Assembly (NCBI RefSeq): GCF_947077765.1
Contig: NZ_CAMTTF010000009.1
Location: 1-64,000 of the forward strand
Origin: Salinibacter grassmerensis
Lineage (GTDB): Bacteria; Bacteroidota; Rhodothermia; Rhodothermales; Salinibacteraceae
Reading direction: 5' to 3'
Length of the DNA: 64,000 nt
The notes beneath the pieces were generated by a model. That model saw only the letters and a program-made list of their open reading frames with translations, made no database searches and was not told the DNA's origin. A program made the translations under genes and the position numbers. Positions 4,519 through 12,126 of this stretch are shown here, one piece after another. The number at the start of each line of letters is the position of its first letter. Positions within the stretch are counted from its first letter, which is position 1.

Positions 4519-5025
4519 ATGCCTCATTACGTTCCCCAAGCTGACGAGTGGGCAGAAGCCTCGTCCCCGCCAAATCCGCCGTACCTTACGGTGGACCCCG
4601 AGACCGCGACCCTACGCTTCGTGGGCGGCCCAGAAGCGGCGGTTCCGGTTCCGGGCGCTCCCGTCGACCCCGCGGCCGGCACGGTTCATACTGTTGTGAC
4701 GGTGGACCCGTCCCTTCGGACGAGCGCACCGCTGTGTGCCCTCTACGTGCGAGAGGATAATATCGACGTGGAGGACCGGCGATCCCCGGACGCGCCTCAG
4801 GCCCACGCGGACGCCCTGGATCAACTGCGGTCTGCGCTCGACGAGATCCTCATTCCCGTCTACATCGACGACGCGATCGAGGAACTGGACAACACCGTCG
4901 ACGGACTTCTCGTGCTCCACACCGTCCAGCACGACGACGGCCGGGACGCCCCGCCCACCTACTTCCGAGCGGCACTCTTCCGGGATGGACATCTCGTGTT
5001 GGAAACGGAGCACGGTGCCCTTTGA
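4519..5025 (+). CDS. Orphan acidic protein
   Basis: The predicted product is 168 residues long, strongly acidic and has no signal peptide or membrane segment. No known domain is recognised. The middle alternates short beta-like stretches (VHTVVTVDPS, LCALYVRE) with an Asp/Glu-rich helix around residues 95-125, which suggests a small folded alpha/beta protein. It starts 19 bases after the aldo/keto reductase stop and could be the last gene of that unit. It converges on the fasciclin gene, 118 bases away. Its function is unknown. Confidence 0.72.
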   Translation: MPHYVPQADEWAEASSPPNPPYLTVDPETATLRFVGGPEAAVPVPGAPVDPAAGTVHTVVTVDPSLRTSAPLCALYVREDNIDVEDRRSPDAPQAHADALDQLRSALDEILIPVYIDDAIEELDNTVDGLLVLHTVQHDDGRDAPPTYFRAALFRDGHLVLETEHGAL

Positions 5026-5143
5026 CCCCCAACGCATCCGTTTCTTCCGCTCCGCGCCGGACCGAACAACAAAGAAGCGCCGAACGGCCAAAGCCACTCG
5101 ACACTTCCTAGGAAACGATCGGCCCGATCGACGTATCTCAGTG

Positions 5144-5569
5144 CTATCGGAGAACGCGGTCGATGGCGTGGACGATTCCATTCTCGGCTTCCAGGTTCGT
5201 CTGCTTGATGGTGGCGTCGCCGATCTGGACCTGCTCACCGTTGGTCTGAATAAGGAAGTGCTCGCCTCCCATCGAGGATATGGACGACTGATTCGCTACG
5301 TCCTTGGCCATGCGGCGGCCCTGGCAGACGTGGTTTTTGAGAAGGTTCTGAAGCTGGGACTTGTTCTCCGGCTTCATGAGGTCCTCGAGGGTGTTTTCGG
5401 GAAGGTTTTCAAACGCCGCGTTGGTCGGCGCAAATACTGTGAACGGGCCCTTGCCTTTGAGCGTATCTACAAGGTCGGCGGCCTGAAGGGCACTGACAAG
5501 AGTCGAGAAGTTCTTGTCGCTTGTTGCGATGTCAACGACGGACGGAGCCTTTCTTTGAACGGTAGACAT
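5144..5569 (-). CDS. Fasciclin (FAS1) domain protein
   Basis: The 141-residue product is essentially one FAS1 domain. The H1-type motif is FTVFAPTNAAFENLP around residues 44-58, and the H2-type segment is near the C-terminus (NGIVHAIDRVL). FAS1 domains mediate adhesion and protein-protein contacts, usually outside the cell. No signal peptide is visible from the ATG at 5569. A longer in-frame start at 5809 adds 80 residues of low-GC translated spacer without a convincing signal peptide, so I rejected it. It is transcribed away from msrA across an AT-rich spacer. Confidence 0.88.
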   Translation of the reverse strand: MSTVQRKAPSVVDIATSDKNFSTLVSALQAADLVDTLKGKGPFTVFAPTNAAFENLPENTLEDLMKPENKSQLQNLLKNHVCQGRRMAKDVANQSSISSMGGEHFLIQTNGEQVQIGDATIKQTNLEAENGIVHAIDRVLR

Positions 5570-5943
5570 AGTGTCGATCCTTGTATGATTGTGGGAAAGA
5601 AATCCGCCCGAAACATTTCGATTGTAATACCTTGCTTTATACATATCACCTGCGTTACCAAAATTTGTTCCTCCCGCCGTAAAAGTATTTTCGTTTTTTC
5701 TGATCTGGCACAACCATCTTTTCCTTATACTTCGACCAAGAGTCGAGACTAGCAAGAAGCAGCGCCTCACTGAATAAAAATCGCCGTCGGCAGACTCCCC
5801 TCCGTGCATTCCGAAACGACCGACAAGAGCTTGTAATTGCCCGCCGCGTAACGGAACGCGGCTGGATTCAACACCTTACCTGCTGCTGCAGGACAGTCTT
5901 TCTTGATTCACGCTCATTCTTTCGTCGAACGTTCGCGCCCATC
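5570..5943. other. AT-rich divergent spacer between fasciclin gene and msrA
   Basis: This stretch carries no credible gene. The 150 bases nearest the fasciclin start are clearly richer in A and T than the surrounding genes, with runs such as TTTTCGTTTTTT near 5690. That would suit a promoter region for the leftward fasciclin gene. No clear inverted repeat or RNA structure was found by eye. Confidence 0.5.
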
Positions 5944-6633
5944 ATGGTCCGCTCCTTTCGCTCCCTGTGGCTAATCGGGGGACTGTTCCTCGTCACGCTC
6001 ATCGGCGGATTTTACGTGTCGGTCTCGGGGTCCGACGCGACGAAGCCCTCGGCCACGCCCGCCCCAACAATCTCGCAGGCCGTGGCAGACACGGCCACCT
6101 TCGCCGGTGGGTGCTTCTGGTGCATGGAGCCGCCCTACGACAAGATCGACGGCGTCGCGTCGACGACCTCCGGCTTCGCTGGGGGCGACGAGGTGGACCC
6201 GTCCTACCGCGAGGTGGCCAGTGGCGCCACGCGCCACACGGAGGTCGTCCAGGTCGTCTACGACTCCACGACGGTCTCCTACGATCGCCTCCTGCGGGTG
6301 TACTGGCACAACGTGGATCCCTTCGACGGCACTGGGCAGTTTTGCGACCGCGGCTCGCAGTACCGGCCTGCCATCTTTGCCCACGACGCCCAGCAGCGAC
6401 GGAGCGCCAAGCAATCGAAAGAAACGGTCGCGGCACAGTTCAGCCGAGAGATTGCCGTTCAGGTGCAGTCGCTCGACGCCTTTTACGCCGCGGAGCAGTA
6501 CCACCAGAACTACTACAAGAAAAACCCCGCGGACTACAAGCGGTACCGGCAGGGCTGCGGCCGGGACGCGCGGCTGCGAGAGATCTGGGGCGACACGGCA
6601 ATGTCGGATGCTCCTCTCGATGAAACAACGTGA
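5944..6633 (+). CDS. msrA: Peptide-methionine (S)-S-oxide reductase MsrA, membrane-anchored or exported
   Basis: MsrA reduces methionine-S-sulfoxide in oxidised proteins. The 229-residue protein begins with a hydrophobic segment (residues about 8-28), so it is probably exported or anchored in the inner membrane facing the periplasm. The catalytic motif GCFWC is at residues 56-60 with nucleophile Cys57, followed by Phe58 and Trp59 of the methyl-sulfoxide pocket. The family motifs GFAGG, the YHQNYYKKNP segment and the late Cys in QGCGRD (possible resolving Cys) are all present. No MsrB domain is fused. An inverted repeat (6639-6645 with 6658-6664) follows the stop but lacks a T run. Confidence 0.95.
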   Translation: MVRSFRSLWLIGGLFLVTLIGGFYVSVSGSDATKPSATPAPTISQAVADTATFAGGCFWCMEPPYDKIDGVASTTSGFAGGDEVDPSYREVASGATRHTEVVQVVYDSTTVSYDRLLRVYWHNVDPFDGTGQFCDRGSQYRPAIFAHDAQQRRSAKQSKETVAAQFSREIAVQVQSLDAFYAAEQYHQNYYKKNPADYKRYRQGCGRDARLREIWGDTAMSDAPLDETT

Positions 6634-6752
6634 TCTCCCGGCGCCTTCTGCCTTGCTGGCGCCGTCCCAGTTGCAAACGCGTTGATTCCCTTCGGGGGAC
6701 GACTATACCTTTGTTGACGAATGACTCGTCCCTCGTCAACAGGCACCGTGCA

Positions 6753-7784
6753 ATGTCACGTCGACACCCTCCTGCACTCCATTTCATATTCCTCCGCCGG
6801 GTCCCGGCCGTACTCTTCTTCGGGGTTCTTCTGCTCGGCGCGCCCCTGCTCAGCGCTTCGCCCGCCGGGGCCCAGCCGACGTTCACCAATGCCGTCCTCC
6901 CCAGCGGCGTGCCTGCTGGGGCCAGTGGGTCAAACGTCGTGACGTCCACCCCCCAATTCTTCGACCCGGCCAGCGGGGATTACCGCCCGGACAAGCCCGC
7001 CAGAAGCCCGCTCGTGGACCTTGCTGGCGGAGATACTCCCCGCGATGGACGCCTCCTGAACGGCCAGACGCAAACCGAGAGCGGCTGGGACGCCGGGGCA
7101 CTGGAGTCGAACGGCTCGGCCCTGCCGGTCGACCTGATCGGACTGGAGGCTACTTTGAGCGAGGGGCGTGGCGGCCAGCAAACCGTCCGCCTCACCTGGA
7201 CCACCGCTTCGGAGACCCGGAACGCCGGCTTCCGCGTGCAGCGCCGCGTCGACGACGCAAGTGCTCTTGGGGCGCGGCAGGCCGCCAAGGGCCCTCAGGA
7301 TGGAGGGAGTTCTCAAGACGCCGTGGGCGCGGAGTGGACAACCCTCGGCTACGTGGAAGGGGCCGGGACGACCTCTCGCCAACGGTCCTACCGGTTTGTC
7401 GACGAAGAGCCACCCTTCGCCGCCGGGCGGCTGCGCTACCGCCTCGTGCAGGAAGACATCAGGGGCGGGACGGAAGCGAGCGACCCGGTCGTGCTGGAGC
7501 GGCCGGCCCCGAGCCGCCTGACGATGCGCCCGCCCGCCCCGAACCCGGCCCGGAGCGAGACCACCGTCGAGCTTGCCTTTCCCGACGCCCAACCCGCCAC
7601 GGAGGCGCGCCTGGCGGTCTTTGACGTCCTGGGGCGAGAGGTGGCGCGCCGCGTGCTCGAAGCGCGCAGCGGATACCGCCGGGCCGTTCGCTTCGGCGTC
7701 GCCGAGTGGCCGAGCGGGCTCTACTTTGTGCGCCTAACGGTGGGGCAGACGACCCGCACCGAGCGGCTGACCGTGGTGCGGTAG
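6753..7784 (+). CDS. Secreted protein with T9SS C-terminal sorting domain; looks like an internally deleted beta-helix protein
   Basis: The 343-residue product has a Sec signal peptide ending near residue 40 (Ala-Gly-Ala-Gln). The following block (TPQFFDPASGDYRP, then SPLVDLAGG and WDAGALESNG) is the closing module typically seen at the C-terminal end of right-handed beta-helix surface proteins in this phylum. A fibronectin-like region follows (TWTTASETRNAGFRVQR). The final 80 residues match a type IX secretion type A sorting domain: a PNPARSETTVEL start, FDVLGREV, and SGLYFVRLT near the end. The expected beta-helix body between signal peptide and closing module is absent, suggesting a deletion or a short paralogue. 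I chose the ATG at 6753 because the signal peptide begins there. Confidence 0.75.
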   Translation: MSRRHPPALHFIFLRRVPAVLFFGVLLLGAPLLSASPAGAQPTFTNAVLPSGVPAGASGSNVVTSTPQFFDPASGDYRPDKPARSPLVDLAGGDTPRDGRLLNGQTQTESGWDAGALESNGSALPVDLIGLEATLSEGRGGQQTVRLTWTTASETRNAGFRVQRRVDDASALGARQAAKGPQDGGSSQDAVGAEWTTLGYVEGAGTTSRQRSYRFVDEEPPFAAGRLRYRLVQEDIRGGTEASDPVVLERPAPSRLTMRPPAPNPARSETTVELAFPDAQPATEARLAVFDVLGREVARRVLEARSGYRRAVRFGVAEWPSGLYFVRLTVGQTTRTERLTVVR

Positions 7785-7941
7785 TCTCTCTTCAGGCGGT
7801 AGCCGCCGCGCAAGCGGGAGCTTTTTCCAGCGAGAGCCTCTGCACTGCTCTCCTGTCCGGCCCCACGTGGGCCCGCCTCCCTTCGCGCTTCGCCTTCGGT
7901 TCGCGCTTTGCCTCGATCTCAATCCGGCCTTTGCCCGACCC

Positions 7942-9615
7942 ATGCGAGATACGTTCCTGCTTGCCGCCCTTCTTCTGCTCGGGGGGACGCTTTCTCCCGC
8001 CGCGGCCCACGTGGCCAGCGATACCATCTACGTCGACACCGATGCCAGTGGGGCGGAGGACGGAAGCTCGTGGACGGACGCCTACACGTCTTTGCAGGAC
8101 GGCCTGAATGCGGCCCGTTCCAACAGCGAGGAGGATGACGTCTGGGTTGCAGGAGGGACGTACTACCCCGATGAGGGCGCTTCCGTCCAGCCCGATGACC
8201 GAGCCGAATCCTTCCGCGTGGAAAGCGGCATCGACCTACGTGGCCACTTCAGCGGGGATGAGGAGAGCTTGTCAGGCCGCACACTCGCCCGAGGCGGCCC
8301 CAAGACCATTCTCAGCGGGGAGATCCAGCAGGACGGCAGTGCCTCGAACAACGCCTACACCGTGCTCCGCCTCACAGGCGGGTCCGCCGGAGAGGTTCAC
8401 ATCGAAAATGGGTCGGCCACCGGCAGCGGCGCGCAGTCTCGGGGCGGCGGAGCGCACGTAAGTGGAGGCACGCTCCACCACGCCGTGCTGACCGGCAACC
8501 GGGCGGGGCGTGGTGCCGCCCTACTCGTCACCGGAAGTCCGAGCCTGGACGTCCTCCAGGTGACGGGCAACCACGCGACCGGGTCCGGGGCGCTGTACTT
8601 CAACGGCGACGCGAGCACGGTGGAGCACCTCACGGTCGCGGACAACACCGCCGACAGCGGCCCGACCGGCCTCTACTTCATCGATAGCGACGCCGCCTTG
8701 GAGGACGTGGCCGCCGGCTCAAATGCAAGCAGCGCCGTCGCGGAGCGCATTCCCATCACGTTCACCACGAAAACCGTCGGCGACACCCTCTACACAAACG
8801 GGTACGGCGAAACACTCACCTACCAAGTAAGCACCGACGACACCACGTTCACCGCCACCGGTGGCGAAAGCGCAAACGTCCCGATCAAAGACGGAGACAA
8901 CCTCGAAATCAGTTCCTCAGACTCAGCGTACCTCAGCACTATCGCCGGTAACAATACAGACGGCGAGCCAAAACCATTCAACGTCAGCGGCTTCCCAGAC
9001 GAACCGGACTACCAGAACACCACGATCAGCGTCCCCAAAGCAAGCGTCACCAACCAGTACCAAATCGTCGGCTTCCCAGACACTAGCCCAGACGGACGAG
9101 ACGTCGGCAACATCTACGTACCATTCGTCAACGAAGCCACACGGTACACGGAACGACAAGCAGGCAACGAAACACTAGACCAAGTCCCGATATGGATATT
9201 CAACGAAAATGATAGTTTCGTCAACAAAGCACAGAATGCGGTCGACGCTGTGAGAGATGTACTTCCGTATTCCACTGAAGGACCATATGTTATATCAGGC
9301 ACAAACGCATTGATCGACTCTGCCGAAGCAAGAAACGAATTCAACTACCACTACGTAGAAGGTGGATCCAATGGAAATAATCAGTTTTACGACTCAGGCT
9401 ACATTGAGTCAGGTAGTAACCGCTTTAGCGGTGCTGCGGTTAAGAGAACACGCATTTCCGAAACATATAGTGGACTTGTTGACATGGAGCAGCAAAACGG
9501 GACTGAAATAAACGTGTACGTCTTCGACAGCGATGGATCATTTGACGAGAACGAAGCTGCCTTCCCGGTGAACATGGAATATAACTCGAAACCAGGATCC
9601 ATTCTACAGCCCTAA
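7942..9615 (+). CDS. Chimeric secreted protein: beta-helix N-terminal half joined to a foreign C-terminal half
   Basis: The 557-residue product starts with a Sec signal peptide (residues 1-22 or so). The opening of a right-handed beta-helix protein follows (IYVDTDASGAEDGSSW, then LQDGLNAA, DDVWVAGGTYYPDEG), with Gly/Ser-rich beta-helix rungs to about residue 265. From about residue 270 (base 8750) the character changes sharply to Thr/Asn/Glu-rich text without helix rungs. Hand counts of 60-base lines give GC 67% at 8641, 53% at 8881, 47% at 9241 and 42% at 9361. The C-terminal half matches no family I know and lacks the sorting domain of its upstream neighbour. It ends 5 bases from the convergent foreign gene. 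I read it as an in-frame chimera created by foreign DNA. Confidence 0.7.
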   Translation: MRDTFLLAALLLLGGTLSPAAAHVASDTIYVDTDASGAEDGSSWTDAYTSLQDGLNAARSNSEEDDVWVAGGTYYPDEGASVQPDDRAESFRVESGIDLRGHFSGDEESLSGRTLARGGPKTILSGEIQQDGSASNNAYTVLRLTGGSAGEVHIENGSATGSGAQSRGGGAHVSGGTLHHAVLTGNRAGRGAALLVTGSPSLDVLQVTGNHATGSGALYFNGDASTVEHLTVADNTADSGPTGLYFIDSDAALEDVAAGSNASSAVAERIPITFTTKTVGDTLYTNGYGETLTYQVSTDDTTFTATGGESANVPIKDGDNLEISSSDSAYLSTIAGNNTDGEPKPFNVSGFPDEPDYQNTTISVPKASVTNQYQIVGFPDTSPDGRDVGNIYVPFVNEATRYTERQAGNETLDQVPIWIFNENDSFVNKAQNAVDAVRDVLPYSTEGPYVISGTNALIDSAEARNEFNYHYVEGGSNGNNQFYDSGYIESGSNRFSGAAVKRTRISETYSGLVDMEQQNGTEINVYVFDSDGSFDENEAAFPVNMEYNSKPGSILQP

Positions 9616-11090
9616 TAAGATTAACCGTAAATCTTGACGTTCCCGTCTTTATACCAGTAGTCAGTCACGCCATTCTTCGGCACGTAACAACACGCCTGGC
9701 TCCCCTCAGGCCTTGTAGTCTCATTCAAGTCCTCGTTTAACCTATTGACTTGACTGTTACAAGCGTTTGAAGAACCATCCGAGGTACTGTTCAACCAGGC
9801 AGACTCATTACTATTAATATCGTAGTAACAGGGTCCACTGGTACCACATTGATCAGTACTATCACAGAACCATCCATTAACTACGTCATAATTTGCAACT
9901 TCTCCCTTTGGACAGCAAACACCAGTGCCATTTTGCGGTGCGTTATCGTACCCGGTGTTTTGTGGGTCGTCGTACTCACCGAAGTTACAGTGGTAGCTGT
10001 TTTTCTTAGCACTCGGATAGTTTGTGTCGCATAGTTCTTGGTTGTTGAGGCATTCGATGGTGCGCTGCCGGTTCTGACACTCTGGGTTGGTGAAGCTGCT
10101 GACCTCTGTCGAGGTTAATTCGCGGCTGTAAATCCGGACTTCGTCTAGGCGTCCGTCGTAGTTTGACGCTGTACCGGTGCCGAGGGTGATACCAGAAGCA
10201 CTGTCTGGGATAGTGCCGGATGGGGTCAGGGAGTCCGTTGCCGTCCCGTCAGCGTAGCCGGTAGCACTATTTGCAGACGAGTTATACGTTGCGGTGAGGT
10301 GTGTCCACGTCCCACTTGGCACGGGTCCGAGGTCAAGGGTGTTCGAACTCGATGTTTGGAATTCGAAGTAAGCCCGTCCACCACTCAAGTAGAGACGGTA
10401 AGCAGAGCCTTTCTGGAGGATTGTCCCGTCGCCGACCGCGTCAGGGTTGATGAACGCGCCCACCGTGATCCCGTCCTCTGGGTCGAGGGTTTGGTCGAAC
10501 GACATGTCGTCCAGGATGGTGGCACTGTCTCCCGGGTCGAATTTGAGTGACTGGCCGAGCTTCCCTCGGATTTGATTCGATGTGTACGTCACGCCACTCG
10601 TCGTGGAAATATCGTTTTCATTTGTCGTGCTGTCATTCGTGCTGTTCTCGAACTGGTAGTAGGCTTCGAGGCCGACGTGCACGGTTTGCGGGCAGCTCGA
10701 CGGCGGGTGGCAGACTTGCGGGCCGTCATTCTCTGAGAACGGGTCGGTCGTGCTGTTACCCGCGGCGCCGTTACACTCTGGGTCAGCGCAGTCCACTAAT
10801 CCATCCCCGTCGTTGTCTTTCCCGTCGTAACAGAGTTCTTTAACGGAGCAGCACAGGGTGCCTTTGTAACTTGTCGGATCCGGTAACTTGTCCTGATCGC
10901 AGTCCGCGATATGAGCGTTTTGGTCACCGCTCATCGTGAACGCGCAGATATCACTGTCAGCACTACAATCTCCTGGTGTGCCCCCGGTCTCGTAGTCACA
11001 ACTCACAACCTCCCGTCCGAGCTTCGCATCGTTCGGGAACGTGTTGTAATCCGGGTCTTGGACACGGCCGGATTGATCGATTTTTCAATT
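8740..11090. mobile_element. Probable horizontally acquired archaeal-like DNA segment (ends approximate)
   Basis: Within this block GC drops well below the flanking DNA. The two coding frames meet tail to tail (stops 5 bases apart) and both lose their 5' ends at the block edges: the plus-strand frame is fused to a resident gene and the minus-strand frame has no start before a stop at 11085-11087. Two truncated convergent genes are what a random captured fragment should contain. No transposase, integrase, terminal inverted repeats or clear target duplication were seen. The N-glycosylation-rich, Cys-rich LamG protein points to an archaeal donor, possibly a nanohaloarchaeon; this is inference. 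Confidence 0.6.
9621..11006 (-). CDS. Cys-rich LamG-domain surface protein, 5'-truncated, archaeal-like
   Basis: The frame encodes 461 residues from a GTG at 11006. It actually stays open to 11084, where the text (GRVQDPDYNTFPNDAKLGR) reads as protein without any start, so the gene has lost its N-terminus and signal peptide. Residues about 1-110 are Cys-rich and include CYDGKDNDGDGLVDCADPEC, a Ca-binding-like repeat seen in surface proteins. Residues about 112-310 are a LamG/concanavalin-like domain (GLEAYYQFEN at its start, GRLDEVRIYSREL at its end). The C-terminal 150 residues carry Cys pairs (GVCCPKG, ACCYVPK) and finish with DYWYKDGNVKIYG. Many Asn-X-Ser/Thr sequons occur. This architecture resembles DPANN archaeal surface proteins. 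Expression is doubtful. Confidence 0.65.
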   Translation of the reverse strand: MSCDYETGGTPGDCSADSDICAFTMSGDQNAHIADCDQDKLPDPTSYKGTLCCSVKELCYDGKDNDGDGLVDCADPECNGAAGNSTTDPFSENDGPQVCHPPSSCPQTVHVGLEAYYQFENSTNDSTTNENDISTTSGVTYTSNQIRGKLGQSLKFDPGDSATILDDMSFDQTLDPEDGITVGAFINPDAVGDGTILQKGSAYRLYLSGGRAYFEFQTSSSNTLDLGPVPSGTWTHLTATYNSSANSATGYADGTATDSLTPSGTIPDSASGITLGTGTASNYDGRLDEVRIYSRELTSTEVSSFTNPECQNRQRTIECLNNQELCDTNYPSAKKNSYHCNFGEYDDPQNTGYDNAPQNGTGVCCPKGEVANYDVVNGWFCDSTDQCGTSGPCYYDINSNESAWLNSTSDGSSNACNSQVNRLNEDLNETTRPEGSQACCYVPKNGVTDYWYKDGNVKIYG

Positions 11091-11200
11091 GCAATAACGG
11101 AATTTAGAACGATAGCATGACGTTGCGTCCGCCGGCCGTCGTTTGTGGGATCAGCACCGGAGCCCCCTTCCGTTCGCCTTGCCACAACGACTCGTCCTCT

Positions 11201-11439
11201 ATGTCCGACGCCCCGGCCCCCACCGACGCGTCCTGCGCTGGGCCGGGGGCGTCCCCCTCGCGTCCATTCTCGGCGACGTGGTCCTGGCCGTGCCGGAGGA
11301 CCTCGGAATCGGGAGCATCATCGTCCTTGTGTTGCCCTACTCGATCGCCCTCGGGATGGTGAGCATGATCGTTTTCTTGGTCTGAGTCCTGCTGGGCCTG
11401 CCGCTCGGGCCGGGCGGGGAGCTGAACTACGTGGGATAG
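11201..11439 (+). pseudogene. Decayed small membrane-protein gene
   Basis: An ATG at 11201 begins a plausible N-terminus (MSDAPAPTD), but that frame soon becomes nonsense. The frame one base over encodes a hydrophobic stretch (WAGGVPLASILGDVVL, then SIIVLVLPYSIALGMVSMIVFLV), hits TGA at 11383-11385, and continues in frame with LLGLPLGPGGELNYVG to TAG at 11437. One frameshift plus one stop would reconstruct a small membrane protein with two or more helices. It sits between the foreign block and the toxin gene, where selection on the resident DNA seems relaxed. The original family is not recognised. Confidence 0.45.
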
Positions 11440-11455: not shown

Positions 11456-11878
11456 TCAGTCTCGTCGCTGGTCGAGAATTGTGAGAAGCTCCGGAGGGGT
11501 GTAGATCGGCAGAGCGGCAGCGCTAAAATCCGCCGTATTGCGGGTCACGATTCCGTCGGCCCCTGCCCTACGGGCGGCGCTGTGGAGGACCGCGTCCTCG
11601 TAGTCGGCAAACCCGGACTCGGCCGCCTGCATCAGAACCTGATGGTTCACCCCCGCGACGTCGAAGAGGCGGAGGAGCGCTTCCACCTTCTCGTGGGTAA
11701 CGGCACTTCCGCGGTTGCTGTCGAGAAGATAATAGATCGTCGTGACGGTGGTCGCCCCGAGCATGCCCCCTAAATTCCCGTGGGCATTCGCGTCGAAAAG
11801 ATGCGCGGCGGACTCGACGAACGGTTCTCGATTCAGAAAAACGTCGAGGACCACGTTGGTATCGAAAAGAATCCTCAT
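11456..11878 (-). CDS. vapC: PIN-domain toxin (VapC family)
   Basis: This is a 140-residue PIN-domain ribonuclease, the toxin of a type II toxin-antitoxin pair. The first acidic residue is Asp6 in the opening FDTNVVLD strand. The DYEDAVLHSAA segment gives Asp92 and Asp95, and TRNTADF (Asn114, Asp117) closes the active site. This is the PIN_3-like subgroup. It overlaps the antitoxin stop by 4 bases, indicating translational coupling. VapC toxins usually cleave tRNA or rRNA; the target here is unknown. Confidence 0.93.
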   Translation of the reverse strand: MRILFDTNVVLDVFLNREPFVESAAHLFDANAHGNLGGMLGATTVTTIYYLLDSNRGSAVTHEKVEALLRLFDVAGVNHQVLMQAAESGFADYEDAVLHSAARRAGADGIVTRNTADFSAAALPIYTPPELLTILDQRRD

Positions 11879-12126
11879 GTCGACTCGTCCAGGTGTTTCT
11901 CTTCGAGGTGCCGTTTGTAGTCGTCCTCGTCGGCCTCTTCCAGGATCCCGATAAATTGACGGGTGGTGTCGGAAGGCGAGGTCTGGTTCTCGTCCCCATT
12001 CTTCTTCGTCACGGCGGCGAAATACGTCTCCACAAGCCGCGACACCGACGTGTCTCGGTCGGCCGCGTAGGCCTTGGCCCGCTCAATCACGTCCTCGTCG
12101 AGCCGCAGCGTGAGTTTCTTGGACAT
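11875..12126 (-). CDS. VapB-type antitoxin (DUF6364/ribbon-helix-helix-like)
   Basis: This 83-residue protein is the upstream partner of the PIN toxin. The N-terminus (KKLTLRLDEDVIERAKAYA, then TSVSRLVETYF) is the standard DNA-binding ribbon-helix-helix-like pattern of DUF6364 antitoxins. The acidic C-terminal tail (LEEADEDDYKRHLEEKHLD) should wrap the toxin. Its start lies 25 bases from a perfect 8-base inverted repeat, a good candidate for its own operator. Confidence 0.9.
   Translation of the reverse strand: MSKKLTLRLDEDVIERAKAYAADRDTSVSRLVETYFAAVTKKNGDENQTSPSDTTRQFIGILEEADEDDYKRHLEEKHLDEST

Follow-up and report, generated by a model that had tools for sequence, protein, structure and literature searches.

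T9SS type A sorting domains and carboxypeptidase-regulatory domains are known mainly from bacteria that have a T9SS. Among DPANN archaea, surface proteins with LamG domains occur, e.g., in nanohaloarchaea (PMC10266531). The locus described here resembles both, as well as the beta-helix surface proteins of the Salinibacteraceae and gene transfer between bacteria and archaea in salterns, yet departs from each. Like T9SS type A cargo (TIGR04183/PF18962), its gene X ends in a sorting tail; unlike such cargo, the adjoining gene Y is without one, and the DPANN partners that resemble Y hold the domain internally. Gene Z, like the LamG surface proteins of DPANN archaea, encodes an acidic, Cys-rich protein of secreted type with a LamG domain, but the core of its family is the Cys-rich part, the LamG domain is an insert missing from the DPANN homologues found, and the gene is truncated. 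Many paralogues of the N half of Y exist within the Salinibacteraceae, whereas the C-domain takes the place of the usual T9SS end, from which Y is split in the form of X. Finally, an archaeal-type gene in a halophilic bacterium is what gene transfer in salterns would deliver, but here a convergent order of two genes is shared, with one member residing in an established bacterial gene.

The window, i.e., the whole stretch of 64,000 nucleotides that was analyzed, is the start of a 111,917-base contig (C9) in a 3.78-Mb Salinibacter-like genome. Features of the locus are listed in Table 1.

Table 1. Coordinates of the insertion, its genes and domains, and its flanks within the window.
Feature	Position	Strand	Description
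Whole insertion X-Y-Z	6638..11118		4,481 bp by comparison with congeners; both borders aligned to L022 and L024 with blastn and local alignment
msrA-like gene, left flank	5944..6633	+	Collinear in congeners; named by sequence recognition, no profile search
Gene X	6753..7784	+	Signal peptide, remnant of a beta-helix end, T9SS type A sorting tail
Gene Y	7942..9615	+	Intact predicted exported protein, 557 aa; beta-helix-like N half plus C-domain without Pfam family
Y C-domain	8776..9612	+	Low GC; distant homologue of the C-domain in DPANN convergent partners
Gene Z	9621..11084	-	5'-truncated Cys-rich secreted-type protein with LamG insert; probable relic
LamG (Laminin_G_3) inside Z	10098..10493	-	Pfam 1.3e-20; missing from aligned DPANN Z proteins
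Acidic double-disulfide repeat (CYDGKDNDGDGLVDCADPEC) in Z	10764..10841	-	NF033662 1.6e-10, 40.6 bits, cut-off 41
AbgT transporter remnant, right flank	11119..11439	+	Two internal deletions (about 0.78 and 0.53 kb)

In comparison with congeners, collinearity of the window was found to extend to 6637, shortly after msrA, and to resume at 11119, and the sequence between these borders to be unrelated to that of congeners at the msrA-AbgT locus; in G004, the insertion stands in place of 413 bp (L022 14486-14898). A preliminary description of this DNA had set the edges of a captured block at 8740 and 11090. Composition does change there, but the true borders are 6637/6638 and 11118/11119 and the unit is larger. 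The same comparison, which that description had proposed as a check, disfavors the joining of archaeal contig sequence to a Salinibacter contig during assembly or binning. A foreign-type Z, low GC and a possible metagenome or draft origin would agree with such an artefact; we nevertheless regard it as highly improbable, since the two flanks match a single locus in several congeners (no more than the 413 bp lying between them in G004), the contig has the length given above, and Y runs on across the GC change and matches its relatives end to end.

Congeners have an intact AbgT gene at the right border (PF03806, 1.3e-190). The gene of the window is wrecked because of the two missing pieces listed in Table 1; what is left (11119-11228, 11224-11299 and 11296 onward) aligns to L022 14899-16527, with 4-5 bp of overlap at both deletion joints. 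PIN-type toxin and small antitoxin-like ORFs, recognized by eye at 11456-12126 (-), adjoin the broken gene and are kept in congeners. No recombinase-like ORF was recognized in 6638-11118, and a search for repeats or target duplications at the borders found none; the insert thus shows no sign of the recombinase or terminal repeats that mark an autonomous mobile element.

The low-GC block itself, described at 8740-11090, was borne out. GC drops from about 70% to 45-50% over 8751-10250 and is then 56-58% until about 11000, the lowest 600-bp value (44.5%) being about 5 SD under the window mean of 65.2%. GC3 drops sharply as well, from 81 to 57. A 3'-ward fall in GC is common to all three Y genes (those of the window, G010 and G023), with GC3 of 49-50 over the last 300 bp, and is steepest in the window. 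Codon usage was found to be atypical in the Y C-domain (z -3.9) and in the C-terminal half of Z (z -6.1), with the LamG part at only -2.0; the foreign codon usage of these two regions would fit a younger arrival. A second low-GC patch, at 5001-6200 (minimum 51%), holds a fasciclin-like gene (5144-5809, -; recognized by eye) with a codon usage z of -3.8.

Y was found to have a signal peptide (as judged from its sequence), a beta-helix half and a C-domain, and to align end to end, up to a common C-terminus, with the L037 and L036 proteins at 38% and 34%. The full-length homologues are of 640 aa in G010, a genome of the same genus, and of 626 aa in G023, a genome of another genus where the contig is 3.19 Mb. 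The C-domains of these three Rhodothermota proteins cluster at 100/99 against those of DPANN archaea, and their N-halves form one group weakly (75/83). Identity of the window C-domain is 33% to G010, 30% to G023 and 17-20% to DPANN archaea. A degenerate-metzincin identity for the C-domain was considered and dropped, as profile searches of Pfam and PDB did not bear it out; AlphaFold, run on P0001 as a single sequence, gave a pLDDT of 30, too low to be informative.

In all three genomes, a homologue of X lies directly 5' of Y. The tail of X matches TIGR04183 (2.3e-7) and PF18962 (3.5e-6), and that of the G023 homologue was recognized as a T9SS tail from sequence. This arrangement of X with a T9SS tail upstream of Y, here named the X-Y module, was detected in 3 of 27 genomes of the family and nowhere else in 247 phylum genomes, and would appear to be an established two-gene module of the Salinibacteraceae. 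In G010, the module is followed by a phage-type tyrosine integrase (L093 5749-6921, -), which suggests that it is able to travel.

These findings alter the earlier view of the plus-strand gene as an in-frame fusion made at 8740 and of both frames as having lost their 5' ends at the block edges. The loss is real for Z; Y is uninterrupted from 7942 and homologous over its full length to two Rhodothermota proteins. Close homologues of the whole chimera in many Rhodothermota had been named as the sign of a native gene, and for Y such homologues do exist, though in just the three family genomes above. Based on the full-length homologues, the upstream X, the grouping of the C-domains and the shared 3' fall in GC, position 8740 marks the border between two domains of one established gene. 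A sharp GC change within an open frame can thus be an established domain boundary and is not necessarily a fusion scar.

The minus-strand gene, Z, converges with Y as had been noted, the stops at 9613-9615 (+) and 9621-9623 (-) being separated by 5 bases. Its description as a Cys-rich protein with a LamG domain and sequons was likewise upheld: Z has 23 Cys, 8 sequons and a Laminin_G_3 domain (PF13385) that scores 74.5 bits against a gathering threshold of 27.6. The frame is closed 5' by a stop at 11085-11087, as reported, but is not startless, since a GTG at 11006 opens a 461-aa ORF without a signal peptide. Z begins near position 87 of 359 in the family model. Because the signal peptide and first ~90-110 residues of its homologues are missing and the frame ends at the right-hand edge of the insert, Z is in all likelihood what remains of a DPANN-type Cys-rich secreted protein.

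Apart from the LamG insert, Z aligns whole with secreted-type proteins of 335-427 aa from the DPANN genomes G277, G034, G063 and G157 at 34-37% (alignment A4), and the conserved Cys and Gly columns of the N and C parts of the family, as well as its NVKI[FY]G terminus, are present in the window protein. A copy cut by a contig end in G113 brings the DPANN genomes with Z relatives to five. A search of DPANN archaea with the window protein as the sole query, which is independent of any profile, gave E-values of 1e-12 to 4e-17; those obtained with the Z profile (1e-121 to 1e-151) are for sequences that are themselves in the profile. Entry to these genomes was through a Pacearchaeota MAG, which a scan of genome collections (sampled, not exhausted) returned by way of the acidic repeat only, together with one LamG match. 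In the 247 phylum and 26 family genomes, no member of the Z family was detected beyond generic LamG or acidic-repeat matches; in the bacteria searched with Z, matches were confined to LamG and the 30-residue acidic double-disulfide repeat, and the same was true of phage, plasmid and viral-contig searches with the Y C-domain, Z and their profiles. The DPANN affinity first proposed for this protein therefore stands, with full-length relatives found in DPANN genomes only. For the C-domain of the plus-strand gene, the protein searches suggested at the outset gave another answer: its nearer relatives are in Rhodothermota, and its match to DPANN archaea is remote.

That remote match lies next to Z. 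In G277, in G034 and at two places in G063, Z and a gene encoding a large exported protein with a Y-like C-domain face each other tail to tail, in the same convergent order as in the window. By hhalign, the window and DPANN C-domains matched over 118 columns (probability 83%, P 9e-6); the score was 46.8, whereas 150 column shuffles never exceeded 24.1 and reversal gave 20.1. The match was found by profiles only, a single-sequence search (P0001) of 371 DPANN genomes having returned nothing for this link. When a DPANN-only C-domain profile was run against 1,196 bacterial ORFs from all six frames, the three Y genes were the only matches up to E 10, with a best E of 0.02 and several of the loci holding the same gene. 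The C-domain was detected in 3 of 270 DPANN genomes, each time with an adjacent Z (p about 3e-6), a co-occurrence that denotes linkage and not independent discovery, as the profile included sequences of those three genomes. A remote Y-Z link thus spans bacteria and DPANN archaea. Since the DPANN relatives of Z likewise converge with a gene for a Y-like C-domain, the pairing in the window is not random, contrary to the initial notion of a random foreign fragment. We found no description of the Y-Z pair in the literature.

Taken together, the low-GC block is the right part of an X-Y-Z surface-protein insertion in which the Y C-domain and Z probably go back to an old transfer as a pair, with Z now a probable relic. 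The pair would have passed between DPANN archaea and halophilic Rhodothermota in the distant past; the C-domain would then have become part of a beta-helix module, kept in the window, G010 and G023, and Z would have been lost elsewhere and, in the window, truncated as the module landed between msrA and abgT. The anatomy of the locus, its borders, the homologies, the convergent order and the truncation were shown directly; we infer the timing, as well as the direction of transfer and the function considered below. An old pair transfer is the simplest account of both the convergent order common to bacteria and archaea and the grouping of the bacterial Y genes; as Z is absent beside Y in G010 and G023, it needs two losses or a separate gain in the window. 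The locus would be a concrete case of surface-protein genes common to DPANN archaea and a halophilic bacterium as a gene pair rather than as a single gene.

A possible but unlikely alternative is that a fragment of a halophilic DPANN genome, with the 3' half of Y and most of Z, was captured recently and joined to a resident gene near 8740, either at random or by recombination that replaced the 3' half of an X-Y module already in place. The sharp drop in GC and GC3, a Z found in the window only and truncated at the insert edge, and the same convergent pair in DPANN genomes would all agree with such an event, and the foreign codon usage, seen in the Y C-domain and above all in the C-terminal half of Z, would fit the recombination route. 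By contrast, the window C-domain is nearer to, and groups with, those of G010 and G023, Y is complete and aligns across the supposed junction, and the X-Y order is shared, all of which argue against recent capture.

The signs of the direction in which the pair moved are mixed: Z is archaeal-looking by its distribution, yet the DPANN partners of Y carry a bacterial-type T9SS domain. These partners have CarboxypepD_reg and internal T9SS-like domains, whereas Y of the window has neither and has a beta-helix half instead. The internal type A sorting domain matches TIGR04183 at 1.7e-12 and 7.6e-7, and its presence inside archaeal proteins was unexpected. On L065 (11784-13775, -) and L066 (7781-10432, +), internal TIGR04183, which scores 29 and 47 bits (cut-off 23), is seen together with carboxypeptidase-regulatory repeats. 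Domains of this kind would suit an origin of the Y C-domain and Z in Bacteroidota-like bacteria, followed by passage to DPANN archaea. We consider this origin unlikely: among the 247 phylum genomes the Y C-domain was found in the window Y only, full Z was in none of the bacteria searched, and the Z relatives of DPANN genomes adjoin archaeal-type genes. The pair's neighbors there are housekeeping genes, several of archaeal type (a Rad3-like helicase, an ATP-dependent ligase and NFACT), and contamination is thus not an obvious source of the DPANN copies.

Under the preferred old transfer, the role of Y would be to present its C-domain at the cell surface, for binding to other cells or to matrix, and X may be a T9SS-exported companion of Y; this proposed surface role follows from the domain types and from published views of nanohaloarchaeal LamG proteins (PMC10266531). 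A further conjecture, which we hold to be quite improbable, casts the convergent Y-Z pair as a surface cassette of two genes that disperses, passing from DPANN archaea to halophilic bacteria or the reverse. It would let an episymbiont and its partner cell recognize each other, such that Y-bearing relatives of Salinibacter would host or fend off DPANN cells.

In G063, parts of Y/Z occur in four or more dispersed copies, 86-93% identical and in different places, whose homology stops close to where Z starts. These copies are on L064, L068, L096, L097 and L112, and several are cut by contig ends, as for a repeated cassette that breaks assembly. In three DPANN genomes (on L065, L066 and L112), a near-palindrome, GTCACTTnTnAGT(G/A)GT, lies some tens of bases 5' of the Y-type start codon and is possibly an operator.
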